Below, one piece after another: positions 1 through 64,000 of a stretch of 64,000 nt of DNA. Position 1 is the first letter of the stretch; each line of letters opens with the position of its first letter. Origin of the DNA: an uncultured Sunxiuqinia sp. Lineage in GTDB: Bacteria > Bacteroidota > Bacteroidia > Bacteroidales > Prolixibacteraceae. The notes below the pieces were generated by a model. The model had not been told where the DNA came from and ran no database searches. It saw only the letters and a list, made by a program, of their open reading frames with translations. Location: NCBI RefSeq assembly GCF_947495665.1, contig NZ_CANLZV010000002.1, positions 310,001 to 374,000 on the forward strand, in the 5' to 3' direction. Made by a program: the position numbers and the translations under genes.

Positions 1-1681
1 GGTAGCCCGTGTAATAAATGACGGTCGCCAGGGTCATTGGTGTAGGTGTAAAGTCCTGCACTTGCTCAAGTTTAAAATCGAGTTGCTTGGTTTCTGCAGC
101 CAGGTTGGCCATGTCGGAGTTGTGGCAACCCGGGTGGCTCGAAATAAAATAGGGGATCAATTGCTGGTTCAGGCCTTCCTGTTTATTTATTTCGTTAAAT
201 GTCTTATTCAGTTTGTAAAACAGCTTAAATGAAGGCTTACGCATGATTTTTAGCACGTCGTCGGAAGTATGTTCCGGAGCCACTTTCAATCGCCCTGAAA
301 CGTGGTGCTTAACAACTTCGCGCAAGTAAGTCATGTTTGTTTTATTGACCTGCTTGTCTTTGGTTTCGTGCAGAATCATGTCGTAACGAATGCCGCTGCC
401 CACAAAGGCTTTCTTGATTTTAGGATGCTGACGAACTTTGCGGTACAGGTCGAGCATGGGTTTGTGATTAATGTCCAGATTCTTGCATATGTCGGGGAAG
501 ATGCACGAGGGACGCTTGCACTTGCGGCAAATTTCTTCATGAATCCCTTTCATTTTGTACATGTTGGCTGACGGGCCACCCAAGTCGGAAATATATCCTT
601 TAAAGTCGGGCATCTGGGTAACCTGGTCCAGCTCCTTCAGAATGCTCTTTTCGGAACGGCTGGCGATGAATTTTCCTTGGTGTGCGGAAATGGTACAAAA
701 AGTACAACCTCCGAAACAGCCACGGTGAATGTTGATGGAGTGGCGAATCATTTCGTAAGCCGGAATGGTGCCTTTGTTTTTGTATTTGGGGTGTGGTAAG
801 CGGGTGTACGGCAAATCGTAATACCGGTCAATTTCCTTTTCAACCAAGGGAGGCCAGGGCGGATTGACAACCACCTGTTGATTGCCGATGTGCTGCGTGA
901 TTTTGTTCGCTTCCGTTTTATTCGACTCTTCCTCGATATGCATGAAGTTTTTGGCAAACTTCTTTTTATCGCTTAAGCATTCCTCGTGCGAATACAAATC
1001 AATGTTATTCCATTTCTTGTTGGTTGCGTATGGCGCATCTTTTTCAATCAAAAAGGCCGTTTGGGGCAGATTGGTAATGGTGCGCGCGTCAACGCCCCGT
1101 TGAATCAGACGCGTAAAGTCAATGATTGATTTTTCGCCCATGCCATAGAACAGCAAATCTGCTTTTGCCTCTTTCAAAATAGAGGGCTTCAGCTTATTTT
1201 GCCAATAATCGTAATGGGTAACCCGGCGCAGCGATGCTTCAATTCCACCCAGCATGATTGGGGTGTCGGGGTACAATTCCTTCAGGATATTGCAGTAAAC
1301 TGTTGCTGCATAATCCGGACGTTTGTCGTGCTGACCGCCGGGCGTATAGGCGTCTTTTGAGCGCTTGCGTTTGTTGGCGGTATAGTGGTTTACCATGGAG
1401 TCCATGTTTCCTGAAGTAACTGCAAAATAAAGTCGGGGAGCTCCCAATTTTTTGAAGTCACGCAAATCATCCTGCCAGTTGGGTTGCGGAACAATGGCCA
1501 CGCGCAGGCCTTCGGCTTCCAAAACCCGTCCAATTACGGCAGCTCCAAACGAAGGGTGGTCAACGTATGCGTCGCCTGTAAATAAAATCACATCGACCTC
1601 GTCCCAGCCGCGTTCTTCAATTTCCTTTTTGGTTGTAGGCAACCAATCGGTTGTCTGATATTTATCGTATAACTGATTCAC
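1..1681 (-). CDS. YgiQ family radical SAM protein (3' end cut by window edge)
   Basis: Translation of the minus strand gives 560 codons with no stop before the left edge, so the C-terminus is missing. Near residue 322 it has the radical-SAM cluster motif CFGGCTFC (CX3CX2C), and around it the typical YgiQ/UPF0313 sequence, including RPDYAATVYCNILKELYPD and an N-terminal stretch with FTGDAYVDHPSFG. The family binds a 4Fe-4S cluster and S-adenosylmethionine; its substrate is not established. The start is taken as GTG at 1681, because it follows an AGAAAGGA ribosome binding sequence and a TAACTTTG promoter box about 30 bases upstream, and because NQLYDKYQTTDWLPTT matches the usual family start. 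It is transcribed away from the acyltransferase gene on the other strand. The family call is firm; the role is unknown. Confidence 0.9.
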   Translation of the reverse strand, partial: MNQLYDKYQTTDWLPTTKKEIEERGWDEVDVILFTGDAYVDHPSFGAAVIGRVLEAEGLRVAIVPQPNWQDDLRDFKKLGAPRLYFAVTSGNMDSMVNHYTANKRKRSKDAYTPGGQHDKRPDYAATVYCNILKELYPDTPIMLGGIEASLRRVTHYDYWQNKLKPSILKEAKADLLFYGMGEKSIIDFTRLIQRGVDARTITNLPQTAFLIEKDAPYATNKKWNNIDLYSHEECLSDKKKFAKNFMHIEEESNKTEANKITQHIGNQQVVVNPPWPPLVEKEIDRYYDLPYTRLPHPKYKNKGTIPAYEMIRHSINIHRGCFGGCTFCTISAHQGKFIASRSEKSILKELDQVTQMPDFKGYISDLGGPSANMYKMKGIHEEICRKCKRPSCIFPDICKNLDINHKPMLDLYRKVRQHPKIKKAFVGSGIRYDMILHETKDKQVNKTNMTYLREVVKHHVSGRLKVAPEHTSDDVLKIMRKPSFKLFYKLNKTFNEINKQEGLNQQLIPYFISSHPGCHNSDMANLAAETKQLDFKLEQVQDFTPTPMTLATVIYYTGY

Positions 1682-1709
1682 GTATTATCCTTTCTTAATA
1701 TTCAATGTG

Positions 1710-1717
1710 CAAAGTTA
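1710..1717 (-). promoter_or_regulatory. Bacteroidetes -7 box for the YgiQ gene
   Basis: On the minus strand these bases read TAACTTTG, an exact fit to the Bacteroidetes -7 consensus TAnnTTTG. It lies about 28 bases before the GTG start and so supports that start. I see no clear -33 TTG at the usual distance. Confidence 0.5.
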
Positions 1718-1846
1718 ACCTGCTTTTATTGATTTAAAAGACTTTGTCCTCTTTTTTTAGAGGCGGATATGTTTAAGAACCCATCCGCTTTTGCAAAAGT
1801 AAGCCGTATCCTTCTTAAATTTAATGCGTGCTTAATCTGGTTAACT

Positions 1847-3637
1847 ATGGAAATCGTAAAACCCAAAGACATTCTTAAAGCAAGTCCGTACCTGGCTTAC
1901 CTTGGAGGAGAAAACCTCGCTAAATTTATCATGTATGTGTTACGGTTCAACAAGCTTAACCGCATTTATGGTCAAATTGCCGATAAGCAGGGGATAGCGT
2001 TTATCGATGAATTGATTAAAATCCTGGAAATTAAATATGAATTTGATGAGTCAGAGTTGCGTAAGATTCCTAAAACCGGGCCGTTTATAGTGGTTGCCAA
2101 CCATCCGTTTGGTGGGCTTGACGGTATTTTGCTGATAAAAATACTTAGCCTGGTTCGGCCGGACATTAAAGTGATGGCTGATTTTTTGCTGAAAAAAGTT
2201 GAGCCCATCAGCGAATTTTTCCTGCCGGTTAATCCATTTGACGCACGAAAGAGCGAACAATCAGATGTTGGAGGAATTAAAAATGCCCTTCAGCACCTGA
2301 AAGCTAGTGGAGGCTTATGTATTTTTCCTGCTGGAGAGGTTTCGGGTTACCAGGCGAACAACAAGATTACTGACCGCCAGTGGCAATATGTCTCTCTTCG
2401 GTTTATAAAACACGCCCAGGTGCCTGTTGTTCCTGTTTATTTTGGAGGGCACAACAGCCGGTTGTTTCATCTGATTGGGCGGATTAATCCGAACCTGCAG
2501 CAAGTAAAACTTCCTTCGGAATTGCTGAACAAAAGACGCCGGCCAGTTAAAGTTCGCATCGGGTCGGCCATATCGGTGAATGAGCAAGCTGGTTTTCCCG
2601 AGGTATACCAGTTTGGGCGCTTCCTGCGGGCGAAGACTTACAGTTTGAAGTCGCAGATTGAAATTCGACGTTTTTTCAATTATTCGTTGAAAAGACAACG
2701 GCGCATAGAAGAAATCGTCAAGGCTTCATCAACCGAGTTGGTGGTCAGCGAGATTGCCGGATTGAAAAGCGAACGTTTGTTGTTTCAGGTTAAGAATTTC
2801 CAGGTGTTCTGTGCGCCATCCAGCGAAATACCAACCGTGCTTTATGAAATTGGCCGCTTGCGCGAAATTACCTTTCGCGAAGTGGGAGAGGGCACCAACC
2901 GGGGCATTGATCTGGACGAGTTTGATTTGTATTACCATCAACTTTTTATTTGGGACGATGAGGCGGAGAAACTGGTTGGAGCCTACCGAATAGGTAAAGG
3001 AACCGATATTTTGCATGAGTTTGGTGTGCGCGGGTTTTATATTCAAAGCCTGTTTAAATTGAAGGAGGCCTTTGAGCCGATTCTTCGGGAGTCGCTTGAG
3101 TTGGGCCGTTCGTTTGTGGTGAAGGAATACCAGCGTCAGCCTTTGCCCTTGTTCTTGCTGTGGAAAGGCATTTTGTACTTTCTGCTGAAAAACCCGGAAT
3201 ACCGCTATCTGATTGGACCGGTAAGTATTAGTGCCAACTATTCGAAAAGCTCAAAAGAGCTGATCATCAAATTTATCATGTCGCATCATTTCGATTGGCA
3301 AAATGCCCGTTTGGTAACTCCCCGAAAAGCTTTCAAATTTAAGAGCCAGGATCCGGATATGAACGTGATTATGGAAAACCTGGATGACATTAATAAGCTC
3401 GATCGATTCATAGGCGATGTTGACCTCCAAAATCCGGGACTTCCGGTTTTGTTGAAAAAATACATTCGTTTAAACGCCAAAATCATTGGATTTAATGTTG
3501 ACCCCAAATTTAATAACTGCCTGGATGGATTGATTTTGCTGGATGTTTACGATGTGCCCAAAAACACCATTGAATCACTTTCAAAAGAAACAAATGATGG
3601 GGCTATTCTGAATCGCTTTTATAACAGCAGGGAGTGA
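1847..3637 (+). CDS. OlsF-like bifunctional acyltransferase (PlsC-type plus GNAT/OlsB-type)
   Basis: A 596-residue protein of two fused acyltransferase units. The N-terminal half is a PlsC/lysophospholipid acyltransferase domain with the motif NHPFGGLD (HX5D form, His near 86) and the later FPAGEVS motif (about 160-166). The C-terminal half resembles OlsB/GNAT N-acyltransferases (REITFREVGEGT, then VGAYRIGKG). Known OlsF-type fusions make ornithine lipids, and related Bacteroidetes enzymes make glycine lipids: one domain N-acylates the amino acid, the other O-acylates the hydroxy fatty acid. Here the amino acid cannot be read from sequence. An ATG at 1769 would add 26 residues, but family members begin with sequence like MEIVKPKDI, so ATG 1847 is preferred. 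It probably acts at the inner face of the inner membrane. Confidence 0.8.
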   Translation: MEIVKPKDILKASPYLAYLGGENLAKFIMYVLRFNKLNRIYGQIADKQGIAFIDELIKILEIKYEFDESELRKIPKTGPFIVVANHPFGGLDGILLIKILSLVRPDIKVMADFLLKKVEPISEFFLPVNPFDARKSEQSDVGGIKNALQHLKASGGLCIFPAGEVSGYQANNKITDRQWQYVSLRFIKHAQVPVVPVYFGGHNSRLFHLIGRINPNLQQVKLPSELLNKRRRPVKVRIGSAISVNEQAGFPEVYQFGRFLRAKTYSLKSQIEIRRFFNYSLKRQRRIEEIVKASSTELVVSEIAGLKSERLLFQVKNFQVFCAPSSEIPTVLYEIGRLREITFREVGEGTNRGIDLDEFDLYYHQLFIWDDEAEKLVGAYRIGKGTDILHEFGVRGFYIQSLFKLKEAFEPILRESLELGRSFVVKEYQRQPLPLFLLWKGILYFLLKNPEYRYLIGPVSISANYSKSSKELIIKFIMSHHFDWQNARLVTPRKAFKFKSQDPDMNVIMENLDDINKLDRFIGDVDLQNPGLPVLLKKYIRLNAKIIGFNVDPKFNNCLDGLILLDVYDVPKNTIESLSKETNDGAILNRFYNSRE

Positions 3638-3826
3638 GCTTAAAATCAGAAATGTTTTTAAACCAAAACTCTAATGGTCTTTGACTCAGGTAAGGGGAAT
3701 CAGTATGAAACAGCCACTGGCCAAAATCGGATAAATGTCAATCGTGTATTTAACTTTCTTTTGAAGTGTTTGTTTACATTTACTGTCCTGTTAAGTTTTT
3801 ATCTGTGAAATAAAATGTAGTAACTT

Positions 3827-4534
3827 ATGAGATTATTTATTGTATTGTTAATGAGTAGCCTGCTGATGGGCTCTTGCGTTCAGAAAAAGAAAGAATCTGT
3901 TCAACCGCTCGATACCAGTTCGCTCATGCATCAGGTGGAAGTCAAAGAAGTGATTCAAACCGATAGTTATACTTACTTAAAAGTTTCAGAAAATCGTGAG
4001 GAATTTTGGATTGCGGTGAGTCGTCAGGAAGCAAAAGTGGGCGAAAAATATTATTATGCTTCAGCTTTGGAAATGAAGGATTTTGAGAGCAAAGCCTTGG
4101 GGCGGGTGTTCGATTCGATCTTTTTTGTTCAGAAGCTGAGTAAAGACCCCATTCAGAAGAGTGCTCCGGTGGCTTCCAAAAAAGAACCATTAGGGAAAGC
4201 CATCGAATCGTTTGATTCCAATATTGAAGTGGAGCCTGCTGAAGGTGGAGTGACAATCGGTGAATTGTATGCTTCCAAAGGAAATTACGAAGGAAAACGC
4301 GTACGCGTAAAAGGAAAGGTTGTCAAAGTGAATAAAAACATCATGTCGCGCAACTGGATTCACATTCAGGATGGAACTAAGCACGGCGAGGATTATGACC
4401 TGACCATTACTTCGGACCAGATGGCAGAAGTTGGGCAGGAGCATACTTTTGAAGGCGTAGTAACCCTTAATAAAGATTTTGGTGCCGGCTATTTTTATGA
4501 GCTGATCATGGAAGAAGGCCAGTTGGTCAACTAA
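3827..4534 (+). CDS. OB-fold lipoprotein, function unknown
   Basis: A 235-residue protein with a lipoprotein signal peptide: a short hydrophobic start and lipobox LMGSC, with Cys17 as the lipidation site. The middle is charged and low in pattern. The last 90 residues (from GVTIGELYASKG) look like a bacterial OB-fold: VRVKGKVVKVN, then WIHIQDGT, then EGVVTLNKDFGAGY. Such domains in exported Bacteroidetes proteins are often labelled nucleotide-binding or DNA-binding OB-fold proteins, but no ligand has been shown and I do not assign one. It is monocistronic in appearance, with a strong terminator hairpin 35 bases after the stop. Confidence 0.75.
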   Translation: MRLFIVLLMSSLLMGSCVQKKKESVQPLDTSSLMHQVEVKEVIQTDSYTYLKVSENREEFWIAVSRQEAKVGEKYYYASALEMKDFESKALGRVFDSIFFVQKLSKDPIQKSAPVASKKEPLGKAIESFDSNIEVEPAEGGVTIGELYASKGNYEGKRVRVKGKVVKVNKNIMSRNWIHIQDGTKHGEDYDLTITSDQMAEVGQEHTFEGVVTLNKDFGAGYFYELIMEEGQLVN

Positions 4535-4567: not shown

Positions 4568-4630
4568 TTAAGGTTTGAAATGGGAGTGAAACATGAAACT
4601 CCGGATTTCAAACCTTAATTTTTTCTTTCC
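4568..4630 (+). terminator. Intrinsic terminator after the OB-fold lipoprotein gene
   Basis: AAGGTTTGAAAT (4570-4581) pairs perfectly with ATTTCAAACCTT (4605-4616), with further GGAGT/ACTCC pairing inside. A T-rich run (AATTTTTTCTTTCC) follows directly. Confidence 0.8.
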
Positions 4631-57765: not shown

Positions 57766-58422
57766 TTAATGACTAAAAACGTAGGTGATCAGGTTTGCTC
57801 CCATTTGCAAGGCCTTTTGGCGAACCTCCGGTGGGTCGTTGTGCACTGACGGGTCTTCCCAGCCATCGCTTAAGTCCGACTCGTAGGTGTAAAAGCAAAC
57901 CAGGCGCCCCTCATGAAACAGGCCAAAACCCTGAGGGGGCCTATTGTCATGTTCATGAATTTTGGGTAGGCCATTTTTAAATTTGAATTTTTGATTGTAA
58001 ATCGGATGATTGGCTGGGAGTTCGGTAAATTCCTGATCAGGAAAAACCTTTTTCATCTCCCGCCTGATATAAGGATCAAGTCCATAATTGTCATCAATGT
58101 ACAGAAAGCCGCCGGCTTCCAGGTAGGCACGTAGGTTGCGGCTTTCTTCCTCCGAAAAAATCAGATTGCCATGCCCGGTAATGTGCACCAGCGGATAATT
58201 GAATAGTTCAATGCTTCCCGGCTCAACAGTAGCGGGCTCCGGATCAATGCTGGTCTGAAGCTCCTGATTGCAAAATCGTATCAAATTTGGCAAAGCCGTT
58301 GGATCAGCATACCAGTCTCCGCCCCCTTTGTATTTGAGTAGGCCCAGCTTCAGATTGGGATTTTGGCCAAATAGAAGAAGGGCAGGAAGCAAAAATAGTA
58401 ATGTCAGACAGCTTGTTTTCAT
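57766..58422 (-). CDS. DUF4159-family exported protein
   Basis: A 218-residue protein with a Sec signal peptide (MKTSCLTLLFLLPALLLFGQ). The mature part has a DUF4159 domain: LKYKGGGDWYADPTALPNLI, VHITGHGNLIFSEEE, AGGFLYIDDNYGLDPYIRRE and RLVCFYTYESDLSDGWED. DUF4159 resembles the glutamine-amidotransferase-like fold and often sits beside MoxR-type or aerotolerance genes, but no such partner is here. A TACCTTTG promoter box lies just before the start. Function unknown. Confidence 0.88.
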   Translation of the reverse strand: MKTSCLTLLFLLPALLLFGQNPNLKLGLLKYKGGGDWYADPTALPNLIRFCNQELQTSIDPEPATVEPGSIELFNYPLVHITGHGNLIFSEEESRNLRAYLEAGGFLYIDDNYGLDPYIRREMKKVFPDQEFTELPANHPIYNQKFKFKNGLPKIHEHDNRPPQGFGLFHEGRLVCFYTYESDLSDGWEDPSVHNDPPEVRQKALQMGANLITYVFSH

Positions 58423-58441
58423 AGCCAGTTATTGAAAAAAA

Positions 58442-58449
58442 CAAAGGTA
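58442..58449 (-). promoter_or_regulatory. -7 box of the DUF4159 gene
   Basis: The minus strand reads TACCTTTG, an exact TAnnTTTG, 19 bases before the start codon. Confidence 0.5.
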
Positions 58450-58650
58450 ATAAGAAAGTGGAATTTTTCGGAATTAGCTAAGCTGGATTGGCAGTTGGTT
58501 TTTGAAGGGCATTTAAGCATTATTATTTATTGATCTGCAATTGTTGTAAGTGGCTTTAAAATAGCTTGTTTTTGTAGCAGTTGAGCGATTGCGATTTGCT
58601 GTTGCTGAAATAGGGTGCTCTTTCTTAAAACTGATTTCGTTTCCAGCTGT

Positions 58651-58658
58651 TATCTTTG
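58651..58658 (+). promoter_or_regulatory. -7 box of the PLP-dependent enzyme gene
   Basis: TATCTTTG matches the -7 consensus TAnnTTTG, 25 bases before the start codon. Confidence 0.55.
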
Positions 58659-58683
58659 GGGTGTATAAACAAGCAAAGAAAGA

Positions 58684-59922
58684 ATGAAAAAGAGTTTTAC
58701 TACCCGATCACTTCATGTTCCGTTTCCGCGGAATGATGCGCATAGAGCGCTGGACATGCCCGTTTATGAAACTGTTGCTTATGAGTTTGATTCTTCGGAA
58801 AGCATGTCGGCCAATTTCAGAGGCGAGCTTCCGGCACATGTTTATTCACGAACAAGTAATCCAACAGTCGAATATTTCGAGCAGAAGATGAAGGCGCTGA
58901 CCGGAGCGCATCAGGTGTTGGCTGTTGCATCGGGGATGGCTGCCATCAGCAACACAATTCTATCGGTTTGCAAAAGTGGCGACAACATTATTTCAGGCAA
59001 TCATCTGTTTGCCCATTCTTTCTCTTTGCTTGATCAAAGTTTACGAAACTATGGCTTGGAAACACGGTTTGTCGATACCACCCAATCGCATTTGGTGGAG
59101 CGACTGATTGATGAAAATACCCGGGCAATTTACTTTGAAACAGTTACCAACCCGCAGTTGGAGTTGGCAGATATTTCAAAACTGTCGGCCGTTGCGCGCA
59201 AATATAATTTGCTGTTAATAGCAGATAGTACCATTACTCCTCCGGTCGTTTTTAATGGCCGCTCTCTAGGAGTCGATATCGAAGTGATGTCAACGACCAA
59301 GCATATTTCTGGTGGAGGTACGTCCTTTGGAGGGGTGATTCTGGATCATGGAAACTATGACTGGTCGCTTAACCCAAACCTGAAATCACTGACAGAAAAG
59401 TTTGGGAAAGATACTTTTATGGCACGTTTGCGGAAAAATTATTTCCGAAATACGGGGGGCGCAATGTCTGCACACACTGCTCACTATCAGATTCTGGGAC
59501 TCGATATGCTGGAGCTTCGTTTCGAGCGTTCGTATAGCAGTTGTATGAAGTTGGGTGAATTTTTGACCCGGCATCCCAAGGTTTGTGGGCTTACTTATCC
59601 CGGGCTGAAAGGTTCCAAGGATTATGAGTTGGCCGCAACTCAGTTTCAGGGAAAGCCAGGAACGATCCTGACATTTGAGCTGGAGTCGGAAAAGGCTTGC
59701 TTTACCTTCATGAATCATCTGCAAATGATTCGCCGTGCAACCAACTTGAACGACAACAAATCGTTGATCATTCATCCTTGGTCAACCATTTTTGTGGAGT
59801 TTTCGGAGAAGGACCGAAAGGCCATGAAAATCAGCCCAACGGCCATGCGTTTGTCAGTGGGGATAGAGGCTGCGGAGGACTTGATGGAGGATATTGAGCA
59901 GGCCCTGAAAGCAATAGCATAA
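58684..59922 (+). CDS. PLP-dependent Cys/Met-metabolism enzyme (gamma-synthase/lyase type)
   Basis: A 412-residue fold-type I PLP enzyme related to cystathionine gamma-synthase, O-acetylhomoserine sulfhydrylase and methionine gamma-lyase. SGMAAISNTILS holds the cofactor phosphate loop, ADSTITPP the cofactor Asp (Asp181), and MSTTKHISGGG the Schiff-base Lys (Lys206). The Tyr that normally stacks on PLP in the NLYGGT block is replaced: here HLFAHSFSLL, with Phe109. The exact reaction is therefore uncertain; sulfhydrylation or gamma-elimination of a homoserine ester is likely. It has its own promoter and converges with the kinase gene. Other methionine-pathway genes are not nearby. Confidence 0.85.
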   Translation: MKKSFTTRSLHVPFPRNDAHRALDMPVYETVAYEFDSSESMSANFRGELPAHVYSRTSNPTVEYFEQKMKALTGAHQVLAVASGMAAISNTILSVCKSGDNIISGNHLFAHSFSLLDQSLRNYGLETRFVDTTQSHLVERLIDENTRAIYFETVTNPQLELADISKLSAVARKYNLLLIADSTITPPVVFNGRSLGVDIEVMSTTKHISGGGTSFGGVILDHGNYDWSLNPNLKSLTEKFGKDTFMARLRKNYFRNTGGAMSAHTAHYQILGLDMLELRFERSYSSCMKLGEFLTRHPKVCGLTYPGLKGSKDYELAATQFQGKPGTILTFELESEKACFTFMNHLQMIRRATNLNDNKSLIIHPWSTIFVEFSEKDRKAMKISPTAMRLSVGIEAAEDLMEDIEQALKAIA

Positions 59923-59928
59923 AGGCGT

Positions 59929-61527
59929 TTAAGCAGGCCGGTAGGGGATATTGAAGAAAAAGCAGGATCCTTTGTCTCTTTCAGATTCAAGGCGGATCGT
60001 TCCATCAAGCATCTCAACATAGGCTTTGGAGATCGAAAGTCCAAGGCCTGCACCTTCGTAGGCTTTGGAAACCGATATGTCAGCCTGAACGAAACGATTG
60101 AATATCGCAGCTTGTTTTTGGTCTGAAATACCAATGCCTGAGTCTTTGACGAAAAAATGAAGCTGATTACTTTCGAGTTTACAACCAAACTCAACCCAGC
60201 CGGCTTTGGTGTACTTCAGCGCATTGTTCAGCAGGTTGGATAAAATGGCAAAAAGCTTTTCCTGATCGGTATAAATCAAGGTATGTTTCTCCGGAAGAGG
60301 CTTCGTGCAACGAAGAAGAAGGTTCTTCCTTTTGGCCATGGGTGAAAAGAAGGTCAGCAGACGCTGGAACTCTTCATTGACATTGACTTTGGAACTAACG
60401 ACTTTCATTTGGCCGGATTCAATCTTTGAAATATCGATGATTTGATTGATCAGGTTTAGCATGCGTTGGCCGCTTTCTTCAATGACTTTGATGTATCGCT
60501 GTTGCTCCCTTTCTTCTAAAAAAGGTTCTTTTAAAAGGCTGGCAAATCCAAGAATACCGTTCATTGGAGTTCTTATTTCATGACTGATATTGGCCAGGAA
60601 AGCGGACTTTAACCGATCGCTCTCTTCTGCGTGATTCTTGGCTTCAATGAGTTCTTGTTCAGCGCGCTTTCGTTCGTCAATATCTCTCATGGAGCCCTCT
60701 ATTCCGATTAAGGTTCCATTGTCGTCAAATAGTTTGTGCGCATTTAGCGAAACGTACTTAATGGCGCCTTTTTTCGTTTTTAGCCGAACTTCGTAGTCCC
60801 AAGCTTCCAGATGTTGCTGAATTTCCTCGATCAGGAAGTCATATTCTTCTGGATGTTCAAAAAAATGAAAGGCATGATGACCGATCAACTCAGAAGGGGA
60901 GTAGCCAATCATGCGAGATATGGAAGGGCTTACTTCTAGAAAATGGTTATGTGTATCAATCTGGAAAAATACATCCTGAATATTTTCAAAGATCTTACGG
61001 TATTTCTCTTCGCTTTGCCTGAGATTTTCTTCGGCTTTTTGTTTTTGCTTTTTCAGTTCGGTTTCAGCCAGGGCTTGTTTGATGGCCGGACTTAGTCGTT
61101 GAAGATTCTGTTTCAGGAGGTAGTCATTGGCCCCAACTTTTAACATTTCAACAGCTATCTCTTCGCCCAGAGTGCCTGAAACAATGATAAACGGAGTTTC
61201 AGGATAGTGTTCGGCGCATAATTGCAAAGCGGCAATCCCATTGTATCCGGGTAAATGATAATCAGCCAGAATAATATCAAAACTGGCTTGTTGTAAAGCT
61301 TTTTCAAAATCAGCTTCGCTATCCACGCGGGTGTAGTCGATACGCCAGCCATCTCTTTTCAGAGCCATCAACACCAGTTCAGAGTCTTCGGGTGTGTCTT
61401 CCAGATGAAGTATTTTTATCGGATTAACTTTGACATTATTGGTACTTGCGGGAACCTGAGCAGTGTCATTCCCCGAAGAGTTAGTATTTTTACCTGTGTT
61501 TTTTTGATTGTAGTTTTCCTTCTCCAT
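59929..61527 (-). CDS. Receiver-PAS-histidine kinase protein
   Basis: A 532-residue soluble signalling protein. Residues 38-155 form a receiver domain with Asp89 in IILADYHLPGYNG, the acidic pair Glu43-Asp44 and Lys139. Then come a PAS/PAC domain (about 172-290), a HisKA dimer domain with His316 in FLANISHEIRTPMNG, and an HATPase domain (ILSNLLNNALKYT, then VKDSGIGI and GAGLGLSISKAYVEM). The receiver at the N-terminus suggests it is controlled by another kinase. It has no membrane segment and no linked response regulator gene. The signal it senses is unknown. Confidence 0.92.
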   Translation of the reverse strand: MEKENYNQKNTGKNTNSSGNDTAQVPASTNNVKVNPIKILHLEDTPEDSELVLMALKRDGWRIDYTRVDSEADFEKALQQASFDIILADYHLPGYNGIAALQLCAEHYPETPFIIVSGTLGEEIAVEMLKVGANDYLLKQNLQRLSPAIKQALAETELKKQKQKAEENLRQSEEKYRKIFENIQDVFFQIDTHNHFLEVSPSISRMIGYSPSELIGHHAFHFFEHPEEYDFLIEEIQQHLEAWDYEVRLKTKKGAIKYVSLNAHKLFDDNGTLIGIEGSMRDIDERKRAEQELIEAKNHAEESDRLKSAFLANISHEIRTPMNGILGFASLLKEPFLEEREQQRYIKVIEESGQRMLNLINQIIDISKIESGQMKVVSSKVNVNEEFQRLLTFFSPMAKRKNLLLRCTKPLPEKHTLIYTDQEKLFAILSNLLNNALKYTKAGWVEFGCKLESNQLHFFVKDSGIGISDQKQAAIFNRFVQADISVSKAYEGAGLGLSISKAYVEMLDGTIRLESERDKGSCFFFNIPYRPA

Positions 61528-61981
61528 TACCTGTATTTTGCGCTTTATTCATAGCAATTACTGCTGTAATTCCAACACCTTCTATCTTAAGCCGATTTAA
61601 TCTTTGTCCTATTGAAAGACTAGTCAGCAATATTTCCTTTCTTGTTCTTCTTGTTTAAGCACACGCACAAGTAGGATTAATCTTCGATGTAAATTCTTGA
61701 AAGGATGGTATAAAAAACTGTCAAGTGTGAAAATAATCCTTGTCAACCAAATATAATTAATCCGTATGTAATTTGCTATTAATCAGGCAGAAGTTTTTGC
61801 CTGAATGTCGTCAGCAGGAGAACAATTACAAAAAAGAAGTGGGTGTATTCTAAAAACGCTTATGAGAATAAAATTCGTAAAATTTAATTTATAGATAAAT
61901 AACATGAAAGAACCCTGTTTATTCCGAAGGATTGTTGTGAAGGGTGTTTATAGGCTAAGATCCTTATTGACTGGTTGGTGC
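61528..61981. other. Gene-free, AT-rich stretch upstream of the kinase gene
   Basis: About 450 bases with no credible coding frame on either strand. It separates the kinase start from the small-RNA candidate and probably holds the kinase promoter, though no clear TAnnTTTG box stands out. Confidence 0.45.
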
Positions 61982-62116
61982 AAAAAAAAGCGGGTTACCA
62001 TCGTCATGATAACCCGTTGTCCATAATTTAGTTTAGTTAGACCAGAAAATAATTATTGGTTTAAAAGAGAAAAGGTATCTATAATTATTTCATTTAAAAG
62101 CACTTGTTTTTAAATG
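61982..62116 (-). ncRNA. Candidate small RNA: promoter, three stem-loops and terminator
   Basis: On the minus strand a promoter (listed next) leads into about 135 bases with no real coding frame. Three hairpins follow in order. One: CATTTAAAA (62116-62108) with TTTTAAATG (62099-62091), 9 perfect pairs. Two: GAAATAATTAT (62091-62081) with ATAATTATTTTC (62056-62045), one bulge. Three: CGGGTTA (62016-62010) with TAACCCG (61997-61991), followed by a run of eight T. No coding gene on the minus strand ends here, so the terminator needs another explanation. Not matched to any RNA family by eye; 6S, tmRNA, SRP and RNase P do not fit. Structure was read by eye only. Confidence 0.5.
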
Positions 62117-62121
62117 CTCTG

Positions 62122-62147
62122 CTAATATAGCATATATTTCATTCCAA
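62122..62147 (-). promoter_or_regulatory. Promoter of the small-RNA candidate
   Basis: On the minus strand TTG (62147-62145) and TATATTAG (62129-62122) are 15 bases apart, close to the Bacteroidetes -33/-7 pattern, with one change in the -7 box. Transcription would begin about at the foot of the first hairpin. Confidence 0.45.
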
Positions 62148-62253
62148 TATTAAAAAAACCTTAAAATTTCTTAACAAATAGAAAACACAGCCGATTTCGG
62201 CTATTATAAATAATTGTTTTTCAGGGTGTAAAAAATGCCAATATGTTATAGAA

Positions 62254-62261
62254 TATATTTG
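62254..62261 (+). promoter_or_regulatory. Possible upstream -7 box for trhO
   Basis: TATATTTG matches TAnnTTTG exactly, 135 bases before the trhO start. It may be a second promoter next to the one at 62372-62379. Confidence 0.35.
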
Positions 62262-62371
62262 CATTTATAACCAGCATTTTCGGAAAATGAGCAAAAAAGG
62301 GCTGAACAGTTTACTTCTGCCAGTAGAGAAACACATTTAAAGATGCGCTACTCCTATATGGAAGGATTTTT

Positions 62372-62379
62372 TATCTTTG
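62372..62379 (+). promoter_or_regulatory. -7 box of trhO, within the longer open frame
   Basis: TATCTTTG followed by C is an exact consensus box. It lies 17 bases before ATG 62397 and inside the extended open frame that begins at 62343, which rules out that longer start if the box is used. Confidence 0.55.
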
Positions 62380-62396
62380 CAGCAAAATTTAGCAAG

Positions 62397-63458
62397 ATGC
62401 ATTTGTATAACCGATACAGTAAAAAGGAGTTGACCAGGCGCTTGAATGAAGAGACTTTCAAGCGAAGAACGATTTCATTTTACCGCTATGTAGCGATTGA
62501 TGAGCCTCAGGAGTTCCGGAATGAGCTTTATTTTCAATGGGATAAGCTTGGATGTTTGGGGCGCATCTATGTGGCCCGGGAAGGAATTAATGCCCAGATG
62601 AGCGTGCCGGAGCAAGCCTTGCCTGCATTTCTGTCGCATTTGGAAGAAATGGAGCAGCTCAAGGCTATGCCGATCAAGTATGCCATTGAGGATGACGGTA
62701 AGTCATTTTATAAGCTGACCATTAAAGTGCGTCCGAAAATTGTGGCCGACGGCTTGGACGAACGTGCTTTTGATACCACCAATGTTGGAACCCATTTATC
62801 GGCGAAAGAATTTCATGATCTGGTTGATCAGCCGGACGTTTTGCTGGTGGATATGCGCAACCATTACGAGAGTGAGATTGGCCATTTCAGAGGAGCTATT
62901 TGCCCTGAGGCGGATACTTTTCGCGAAGAAATTGAAATGGTTGTCAATGATTTGAAGGAGCAAAAAGAGCGTAAGATCCTGTTGTATTGTACGGGAGGTA
63001 TACGTTGTGAAAAAGCAAGTGCCTATTTGAGACACCATGGTTTCAGCGATGTTAACCAACTGCATGGAGGTATTATTGAGTATGCCCGGCAAATTAAACA
63101 GCTTGATCTTGAGTCAAAGTTCATAGGTAAAAACTTCGTTTTTGATCAGCGCTTGGGGGAAACGGTCAGTGGGGAAGTGATTGCCCACTGTCACCAGTGC
63201 GGACGTAAGTGCGATACGCATACCAACTGCGCCAATGACTTGTGTCACATCCTCTTTATTCAATGCGAGACCTGTGCTCTGCAATACGAAGGCTGTTGCA
63301 CTAGTGAGTGTCAGTCGGTATTGCATGCCACGGAAGAAGAGCGCTTGTTGCACGTTCAAACTTTCAAACGTAAATTTGGCAACCGAAAAAGTTTTCGAAA
63401 AAGCATTGATAACCGGCTAAAAACAGAAAGCCAAAGCGCAACCGTTGAGCATGACTAA
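62397..63458 (+). CDS. trhO: tRNA uridine(34) hydroxylase (rhodanese type)
   Basis: A 353-residue protein of the TrhO/YceA family, which hydroxylates uridine 34 of certain tRNAs at the wobble position. An N-terminal UPF0176 domain (FYRYVAIDEPQEF, YVAREGINAQMSV) precedes a rhodanese domain with LLYCTGGIRCEKA, where Cys198 is the active-site Cys and Cys204 follows. The C-terminus has a Cys-rich patch (CHQCGRKC, then CETCALQYEGCC) that may bind metal. An ATG at 62343 would add 18 residues, but the promoter box at 62372-62379 and family length (near 350) favour ATG 62397. The dus gene starts inside its last codons. Confidence 0.93.
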   Translation: MHLYNRYSKKELTRRLNEETFKRRTISFYRYVAIDEPQEFRNELYFQWDKLGCLGRIYVAREGINAQMSVPEQALPAFLSHLEEMEQLKAMPIKYAIEDDGKSFYKLTIKVRPKIVADGLDERAFDTTNVGTHLSAKEFHDLVDQPDVLLVDMRNHYESEIGHFRGAICPEADTFREEIEMVVNDLKEQKERKILLYCTGGIRCEKASAYLRHHGFSDVNQLHGGIIEYARQIKQLDLESKFIGKNFVFDQRLGETVSGEVIAHCHQCGRKCDTHTNCANDLCHILFIQCETCALQYEGCCTSECQSVLHATEEERLLHVQTFKRKFGNRKSFRKSIDNRLKTESQSATVEHD

Positions 63459-64000
63459 TTTTTGGAAAGAGATAAAAGCTCCAATCATGGCCTTGGCGCC
63501 TATGGAAGATGTTACCGACACTTCATTTCGTGAGTTGGTAGCCCGCATTTCATATCCCGAATGTTTACATCTTTTGTTTACTGAGTTTACGGCAGTAGAC
63601 GGAATGAATCATCCGAAGGGGAAGGAAAGGGTTTCAGAGCGCCTGATTGTGAGTAAAAGTGAACGGGAAGTCCTGAAGGAAAAAGGGATTAAACTGATTG
63701 CTCAGATTTGGGGGAACAAACCAGAAGTTTTCCATAAAATTACCAAGGAGATTTCGGAAGAGTATGATTTTGATGGGATAGACATTAATATGGGCTGTCC
63801 GGTTAAAAATGTGGTAAAACAAGGATCATGCAGTGCACTGATCGATCAGCCTGCTTTGGCGCAGGAAATTATTCTGGCTTCGAAAGAAGCAACCAAGCTA
63901 CCTGTTTCAGTAAAAACAAGAACCGGAATCAGACAACACGAAACGGAGCGCTGGATTAATCAATTGCTGGAGACGAAACCGGCCGCCATCACGCTGCACG
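63451..64000 (+). CDS. tRNA-dihydrouridine synthase (5' part, runs off the right edge)
   Basis: The visible 183 codons encode the start of a Dus-family flavoenzyme that reduces uridine to dihydrouridine in tRNA with NADPH. The N-terminal MALAPMEDVTDTSFRELV is the FMN-binding start, and DGIDINMGCPVKNVVKQGSC holds the catalytic Cys in MGCP (given here only to that Cys and neighbours), with VKTRTGI after it. DusB-like in pattern, though the subtype cannot be fixed without the C-terminus. Its ATG overlaps the trhO stop by 8 bases, so both tRNA-modifying genes are likely translated together. Confidence 0.92.
   Translation, partial: MTNFWKEIKAPIMALAPMEDVTDTSFRELVARISYPECLHLLFTEFTAVDGMNHPKGKERVSERLIVSKSEREVLKEKGIKLIAQIWGNKPEVFHKITKEISEEYDFDGIDINMGCPVKNVVKQGSCSALIDQPALAQEIILASKEATKLPVSVKTRTGIRQHETERWINQLLETKPAAITLH

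Follow-up and report, generated by a model that had tools for sequence, protein, structure and literature searches.

An element on the minus strand of this Sunxiuqinia genome, at 61982-62119 of the window (the whole 64-kb stretch of DNA that was analysed, G000:C2:310001-374000, where G000 is this genome), is very probably, judging from its conservation, a standalone small RNA gene with a regulatory role that is kept across the whole family Prolixibacteraceae. We call it sRNA1. A second, previously unlisted small RNA, sRNA2, lies at G000:C5:53697-53837 and has near its 3' end a segment of 18-30 nt that is complementary to the conserved core of sRNA1. It is rather likely that sRNA1 is a trans-acting base-pairing regulator and that sRNA2 is its sigma-54-controlled antagonist, a so-called sponge.

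Putative promoter, terminator and conserved core of sRNA1

The predicted sRNA1 gene is about 135 nt long, with the 5' end placed from a -7-like promoter box, TATATTAGC (62121..62129, minus strand), and the 3' end from a run of T. The box is near-invariant in the family alignments and resembles what we take to be the Bacteroidota -7 consensus, TAnnTTTG, and we propose that it is a promoter box of the housekeeping type. The promoter-like pair given in the preliminary description did not hold up: a promoter scan around sRNA1 returned 16 sites against 11.3 +/- 3.6 in shuffles, so a match of the E. coli type says little at this locus, and no conserved -35/-33 partner of the box was seen in the cross-genus homologue alignments, the -7-like box being the only conserved part of the pair. 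Upstream of the promoter, an A/T-rich block of the TTAA..AATTTTTAA type (62159..62177, minus strand) recurs in homologues, many of which have it upstream of the box in a form of the ATTAA-AAATTTTTAA type; this block may act as an UP-type element or bind a regulator.

The terminator stem-loop (61991..62016, minus strand), located by a terminator scan and by the consensus fold, is a hairpin of 11 pairs running from 62016 to 61991 and followed by a run of eight T (61989-61982). A terminator scan of 58000-64000 gave nine terminator-like sites against 5.6 +/- 2.6 in shuffles, and the scan alone is therefore weak evidence; the hairpin is kept in the 46 aligned homologues, where seven of nine pairs have at least one sequence changed on both sides, and the T-tailed minus-strand terminator of the preliminary description is thereby upheld. 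The stem reads CGGGTTATC/GATAACCCG in the alignment, with the T-run after it. The folding check that had been suggested also came out in favour of structure, as the region 61982-62147 folds with -33.7 kcal/mol (z -3.9) and 0 of 200 shuffles were as good. Of the three hairpins in a row that had been described, the terminator is conserved throughout (97.2% of cells paired in 12 relatives), the 5' hairpin (62098..62119, minus strand) only in part (73.9% of cells in these sequences), and the middle one is absent from the consensus folds of the homologue alignment. Likewise, the compensatory changes expected of homologous loci were found in the terminator stem, and the two upstream hairpins did not stand as conserved features; the consensus fold of the 46 sequences holds only the terminator. 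In one genome, G094 (L126, 1514-1610 on the plus strand and 1565-1646 on the minus strand), the sRNA1 terminator matches the model on the other strand too, and it may end convergent genes as well.

The near-constant parts of the 46 sequences are the box and, after a variable stretch, the core, the terminator stem and the T-run. The core (62017..62077, minus strand; TACCTTTTCTC ... ACCAATA ... TTTTCTGGTCTAACTAAACTAAATTATGGACAA) is roughly 60 nt long, has no helix in the consensus and appears in the alignment as CCTTTTCTC..ACCAATA..TTTTCTG-RTCTAACTAAACTAAA-TATGRACAA. Within it, an AUG in a start-like context (62022..62024, minus strand) is kept as a start codon in 46 of 46 sequences, in a count that covered ATG (43), GTG (1) and TTG (2) only. 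The frame behind this codon is not conserved and ends after 2 to 73 codons with no common length, and no open reading frame accounts for 61982-62147, in agreement with the earlier description of the region as free of coding frames. A small-protein gene was rejected because the frame varies among the 46 sequences, by which sRNA1 is non-coding. The retained start codon, together with the unpaired state of the core, would also suit sRNA1 as mainly a protein- or ribosome-binding decoy in which ACUAAACUAAACUAUGRAC imitates a translation start without a gene. We consider such a decoy very improbable, as it leaves the conserved CCUUUUCUC part and the complementary RNA unexplained, and the likeness to a start was judged by eye, without a model score.

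Distribution of sRNA1

A DNA search of the genomes of 61 relatives found sRNA1 in 26, all of one family, and in none of the 24 genomes from other families of the order. A covariance search across related genomes had been proposed as a check on the RNA, and its outcome was positive: the model matched 96 of the 140 Prolixibacteraceae genomes (78 of the 103 of good quality), belonging to 19 of the 23 genera. Part of these 96 matches were inspected by eye, and those in G150, G012 and G025 appear to be genuine copies that have diverged, while one place in G157 resembled a match to the terminator only. The gene is single-copy, with one copy in its own genome and, in almost every genome of the family, a single match; a second, weak match to the model was present in three genomes (G094, G104 and G157). 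When named genomes were scanned with a pattern, 41 places matched, of which inspection left 40, the carriers being Sunxiuqinia, Mangrovibacterium, Draconibacterium, Maribellus, Mariniphaga and Prolixibacteraceae MAGs, among others. The match in an Oscillospiraceae MAG (L031) was a chance match and was dropped before the alignment, which consisted of 46 distinct sequences. Three further loci were left out of it, two being an antisense site at uxaA (L025 and L026) and one a short match to the upstream flank (L027).

When the covariance search was made over the order, 9 of 295 genomes matched, four of them from Prolixibacteraceae. The five matching genomes outside the family (six places, E 1e-5 to 8e-4) were rejected as carriers, as they share only a similar terminator, and by eye these look-alikes stand mostly behind coding-like sequence. 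In Rfam 15, sRNA1 has no covariance match above the gathering score.

Neighbourhood of sRNA1

The preliminary description placed the element divergent from trhO and upstream of a kinase gene and held that its terminator serves no minus-strand gene, and the annotation of the window agrees on both points. The divergent neighbour is a trhO-like gene (62343..63458, plus strand) with UPF0176_N, Rhodanese and Rhodanese_C domains, the next gene downstream on the strand of sRNA1 encodes a sensor kinase with the architecture Response_reg-PAS-HisKA-HATPase_c (59929..61527, minus strand), and upstream there is no gene on the minus strand for the terminator to end.

With a kinase gene downstream, sRNA1 might be its cis-acting leader or attenuator, and in both G000 and G005 a kinase gene does follow on the same strand, the reading frame starting 443 and 503 bases past the match. 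However, in 18 of 25 sRNA1 loci the next downstream open reading frame (at least 80 aa) is convergent, the same-strand frames of the other 7 belong to varied families, and homologues do not share one downstream gene. Because the neighbours change from genus to genus, sRNA1 is not a leader of the kinase gene; synteny leads us to reject the leader or attenuator, to which we give next to no probability. The varied and mostly convergent downstream frames therefore argue for a standalone RNA, as had been claimed from the start. That reading is also favoured by the presence of a putative promoter box of its own and an intrinsic terminator, apparently serving no gene, in 19 genera while the downstream gene varies. 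The sequences compared show the conserved gene, its terminator and its changing neighbourhood.

A second small RNA, sRNA2

The sRNA2 site was first sighted in a search for the complement of the sRNA1 core with three mismatches allowed. The matches were no commoner than those of the reversed pattern, and the pattern also matched many coding regions; four of the matches shared one intergenic element, where they directly preceded a terminator, downstream of a gene assigned here as mtnN (PNP_UDP_1 in Pfam). The element is present downstream of this gene in all seven Sunxiuqinia genomes, and also in G010 and G101, from two other genera, where it lies upstream of a gene assigned here as lepA, so that sRNA2 was found in 3 of the 23 genera. 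In Rfam it has no family match, BTnc005 reaching 24.6 bits where its gathering score is 174.8.

At its beginning sRNA2 has an invariant TGGCAYA-N4-TTGT, which has the spacing of a sigma-54 -24/-12 promoter; the consensus of such promoters underlies our call of the motif. A putative -24/-12 motif of the form TGGCAY-N5-TTG[TC] is found in the seven Sunxiuqinia genomes, G010 and G101. When five sRNA2 neighbourhoods, about 74 kb in total, were searched on both strands for TGGCAYA-N4-TTG[TC], each had a single match, and it was the one at sRNA2. The remainder of sRNA2 comprises a small hairpin, the invariant sequence AACAATTAAACA, the segment complementary to sRNA1, and a terminator in which changes occur on both sides. 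It looks like an independent gene with a promoter of the sigma-54 type. The rpoN gene was found in 29 of 31 genomes, and in G000 it lies about 11 kb from sRNA2. The distance of about 11 kb was observed in G000 (G000:C5:53697-53837 and 64789-65265, L264) and in G006, and it represents a neighbourhood and not an operon.

In G010, one gene separates sRNA2 from a Sigma54_activat gene; here the complement match lies before the terminator, and TTGGCACAACATTTGT, noticed afterwards, lies 112 bases upstream. G101 matches the sRNA2 model weakly; past the portion that the model covers, TTCATAAGTTTGGTTTAGTTAGG and a terminator come after the sigma-54 motif. Two copies of a core-complementary repeat, GGTTTAGTTAGGTTTAGTTAGG, are present at the same locus (L262), downstream of this motif (at 4587) and preceded by an additional T-tailed hairpin. 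Weak R2 matches in G079, G143, G082 and G078 do not have the sigma-54 motif as written and were not counted.

Complementarity between sRNA1 and sRNA2

The segment near the 3' end of sRNA2 is complementary to the conserved core of sRNA1, as a sponge would be; in G000 an 18-nt stretch of the core (62032..62049, minus strand) is complementary, with one bulge, to the genome's own sRNA2 on C5. With sRNA2 as the query, the search returned sRNA2 places, the terminators on their reverse strands and nothing else but the complement of sRNA1, the last in 7 of 41 genomes and with E 8e-4 to 9e-3. Eight genomes with both RNAs in hand entered a window control, and in all eight, none of the masked control windows, which numbered 370-4237 per genome, reached the local alignment score of the pair (p per window 1.6e-8 to 5.8e-4). 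The scores were 27-44 compared to 11-20 for reversed or same-sense sRNA1 controls. In G000 the p is about 3e-5 per window, which means that chance would meet the score a few times per genome, and the case consequently rests on recurrence in conserved sRNA2 genes. The complementary segment varies between species by substitutions and small insertions, and each copy still fits. A pattern of promoter plus complement matched 22 places in the 140 genomes, a number close to that for the reversed pattern; seven of the 22, those at sRNA2 in six Sunxiuqinia and G010, were examined further.

The predicted duplexes are about 18-21 bp long with a few unpaired bases in five Sunxiuqinia genomes and more broken in G001. 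The core duplexes of these six range from -22.1 to -27.8 kcal/mol, with G000 at -22.1, and shuffles were as good in 1-14 of 1000 cases when sRNA2 was shuffled and in 1-28 of 1000 when sRNA1 was. The seventh Sunxiuqinia genome, G002, is 71% complete, gave no sRNA1 and is outside this comparison. In the other genera, the duplex with the genome's own sRNA1 was about 30 nt and -36.6 kcal/mol in G010 (0 of 1000 shuffles as good) and -27.5 in G101 (32 of 1000); in G001 and G101, shuffles reach the observed energy 14-32 times per 1000. Moreover, 306 of 8286 windows of 80 nt in G000 DNA reach -22.1, five of the best being the complement of sRNA1 itself, and duplex energy is thus a poor yardstick by which the G000 pair is not unusual. 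Over the whole RNAs, duplex energy was uninformative.

A two-sided change was found in G001, which has GATCT in sRNA1 and AGATC in sRNA2 compared to GGTCT and ACC in the other five Sunxiuqinia, and its sRNA1 pairs best with its own sRNA2 (-22.7 versus -18.3 to -21.1 for the other six). Another pairing position in G001 has changed to a G-A mismatch, which counts against pairing. The background frequency of the first matches and the moderate duplex energies in G000 and G001 would suit a real regulator sRNA1 next to an unrelated sigma-54 small RNA with incidental complementarity. We find this unlikely given that no control window reached the score in any of the eight genomes, that the complementarity recurs at a different locus in two further genera, and that G001 has the two-sided change. 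The comparison of the sequences points instead to sRNA2, with its promoter-like motif and its complementarity in eight genomes, as a partner of sRNA1.

Proposed mechanism and candidate targets

We infer that both RNAs are transcribed in the directions given and pair in cells. The long unpaired core of sRNA1 would base-pair with other RNAs, and the terminator hairpin would end the transcript. Near its 3' end, sRNA2 would offer the complement of the core, TTTTCTGRTCTAACTAAACTAA, which in two genera extends over the following ATGAA. A sigma-54 activator would turn sRNA2 on, and by pairing sRNA2 would take sRNA1 away from its mRNA targets, presumably at mRNA start regions. Whether the system is a two-RNA switch of Prolixibacteraceae seems to us evenly balanced; in such a switch, a family-wide single-copy sRNA seed would be neutralised by a sigma-54-controlled antisense sRNA that has moved (mtnN in one genus, lepA in two) while re-matching the seed.

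Complementarity is symmetric, and sRNA2 has an invariant motif of its own, GTGG..AACAATTAAACA, outside the segment that pairs with sRNA1. The roles could accordingly be reversed, with sRNA2 regulating mRNAs upon sigma-54 induction and sRNA1, made steadily, acting as the decoy that sets its threshold. This is doubtful, as sRNA1 occurs in 19 of 23 genera and sRNA2 in three, where it changes place, and regulators would usually be expected to outlast sponges. The distribution thus suggests sRNA1 as the regulator and sRNA2 as the sponge.

No conserved mRNA target of sRNA1 was found. In two sister species, a near-copy of the core (about 41-43 nt), which the DNA search returned as a second match, lies antisense over the uxaB-uxaA junction and the start codon of uxaA (G003:C10:82140-82180, L026; G004:C8:63953-63993, L025), the gene names being putative assignments from sequence. 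The duplex of sRNA1 with the uxaA site has -35.9 kcal/mol, and the site is a candidate for a recently gained target. As a general target uxaA was rejected, since the site is in G003 and G004 only and not at the other uxaA starts compared (nine starts from 15 loci, that of G000 not among them). Within G000, no other site was found within three mismatches of a 25-base sRNA1 pattern. A second seed, AAAGAGAAAAGGTATC, was also set aside, as its candidate targets were not convincing and it matched no more often than the reversed pattern.

Comparison with known systems

To our knowledge, what is known of base-pairing RNAs in Bacteroidota comes mostly from Bacteroides and a small number of flavobacteria. 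No report on small RNAs of Prolixibacteraceae or on a sponge RNA in Bacteroidota was found in a literature search, most subscription literature being outside its scope. As far as this search shows, it would be the first time in Bacteroidota that a seed RNA kept family-wide is paired with a sponge that shifts between loci. If true, it would mean that a family-wide small RNA has a natural antagonist tied to sigma-54 signals and that circuits of small RNA and sponge exist in Bacteroidota too. The pair is directly testable, and the natural sequence variants are ready-made mutants.

In enterobacteria, small RNA regulation is relieved by a second, complementary RNA, as with the RyhB sponge from the leuZ spacer and the partner of ChiX. 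Many of these sponges are parts of other transcripts, whereas sRNA2 appears to have its own gene and a sigma-54-type promoter.

The examples of GibS and FopS of Bacteroides show that, in this phylum, an RNA that is mostly unpaired and ends in a terminator can target start codons (PMC7366714, PMC11697453). Similarly to them, sRNA1 is from the same phylum, intergenic, and made of a largely unpaired conserved stretch and an intrinsic terminator, GibS being about 145 nt (PMC7366714, PMC11697453). Both pair at the start codons of their targets, and the accessible parts of these reports describe no antisense partner RNA for either (PMC7366714, PMC11697453). FopS is a family of 14 copies with a 5'-terminal R1 seed, in contrast to the single-copy sRNA1 with its core at the 3' side next to the terminator (PMC11697453). 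No Rfam family gave a match to sRNA1, which sets it apart from GibS and FopS.

For sRNA2, a likeness is found in Rfp36 of Flavobacterium psychrophilum, a putative regulatory RNA listed under the sigma-54-type promoter motif SM4 (PMC9723704). The likeness, a motif of this type in a species of Bacteroidota, is one of description and not of sequence, and the accessible part of the report describes no complementary partner for Rfp36 (PMC9723704).

A parallel for two standalone small RNAs that pair and modulate each other is CjNC110 and CjNC140 of Campylobacter jejuni (PMC10470494). That pair comes from a different phylum and is likened here by description and not by sequence, and its pairing was demonstrated by gel shift, while ours is predicted (PMC10470494). 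One of the two is CU-rich and the other GA-rich, and one is possibly under sigma-54 and lies just downstream of luxS (PMC10470494). In a similar way, the Sunxiuqinia sRNA2 lies downstream of mtnN, which is another gene of the methyl cycle.
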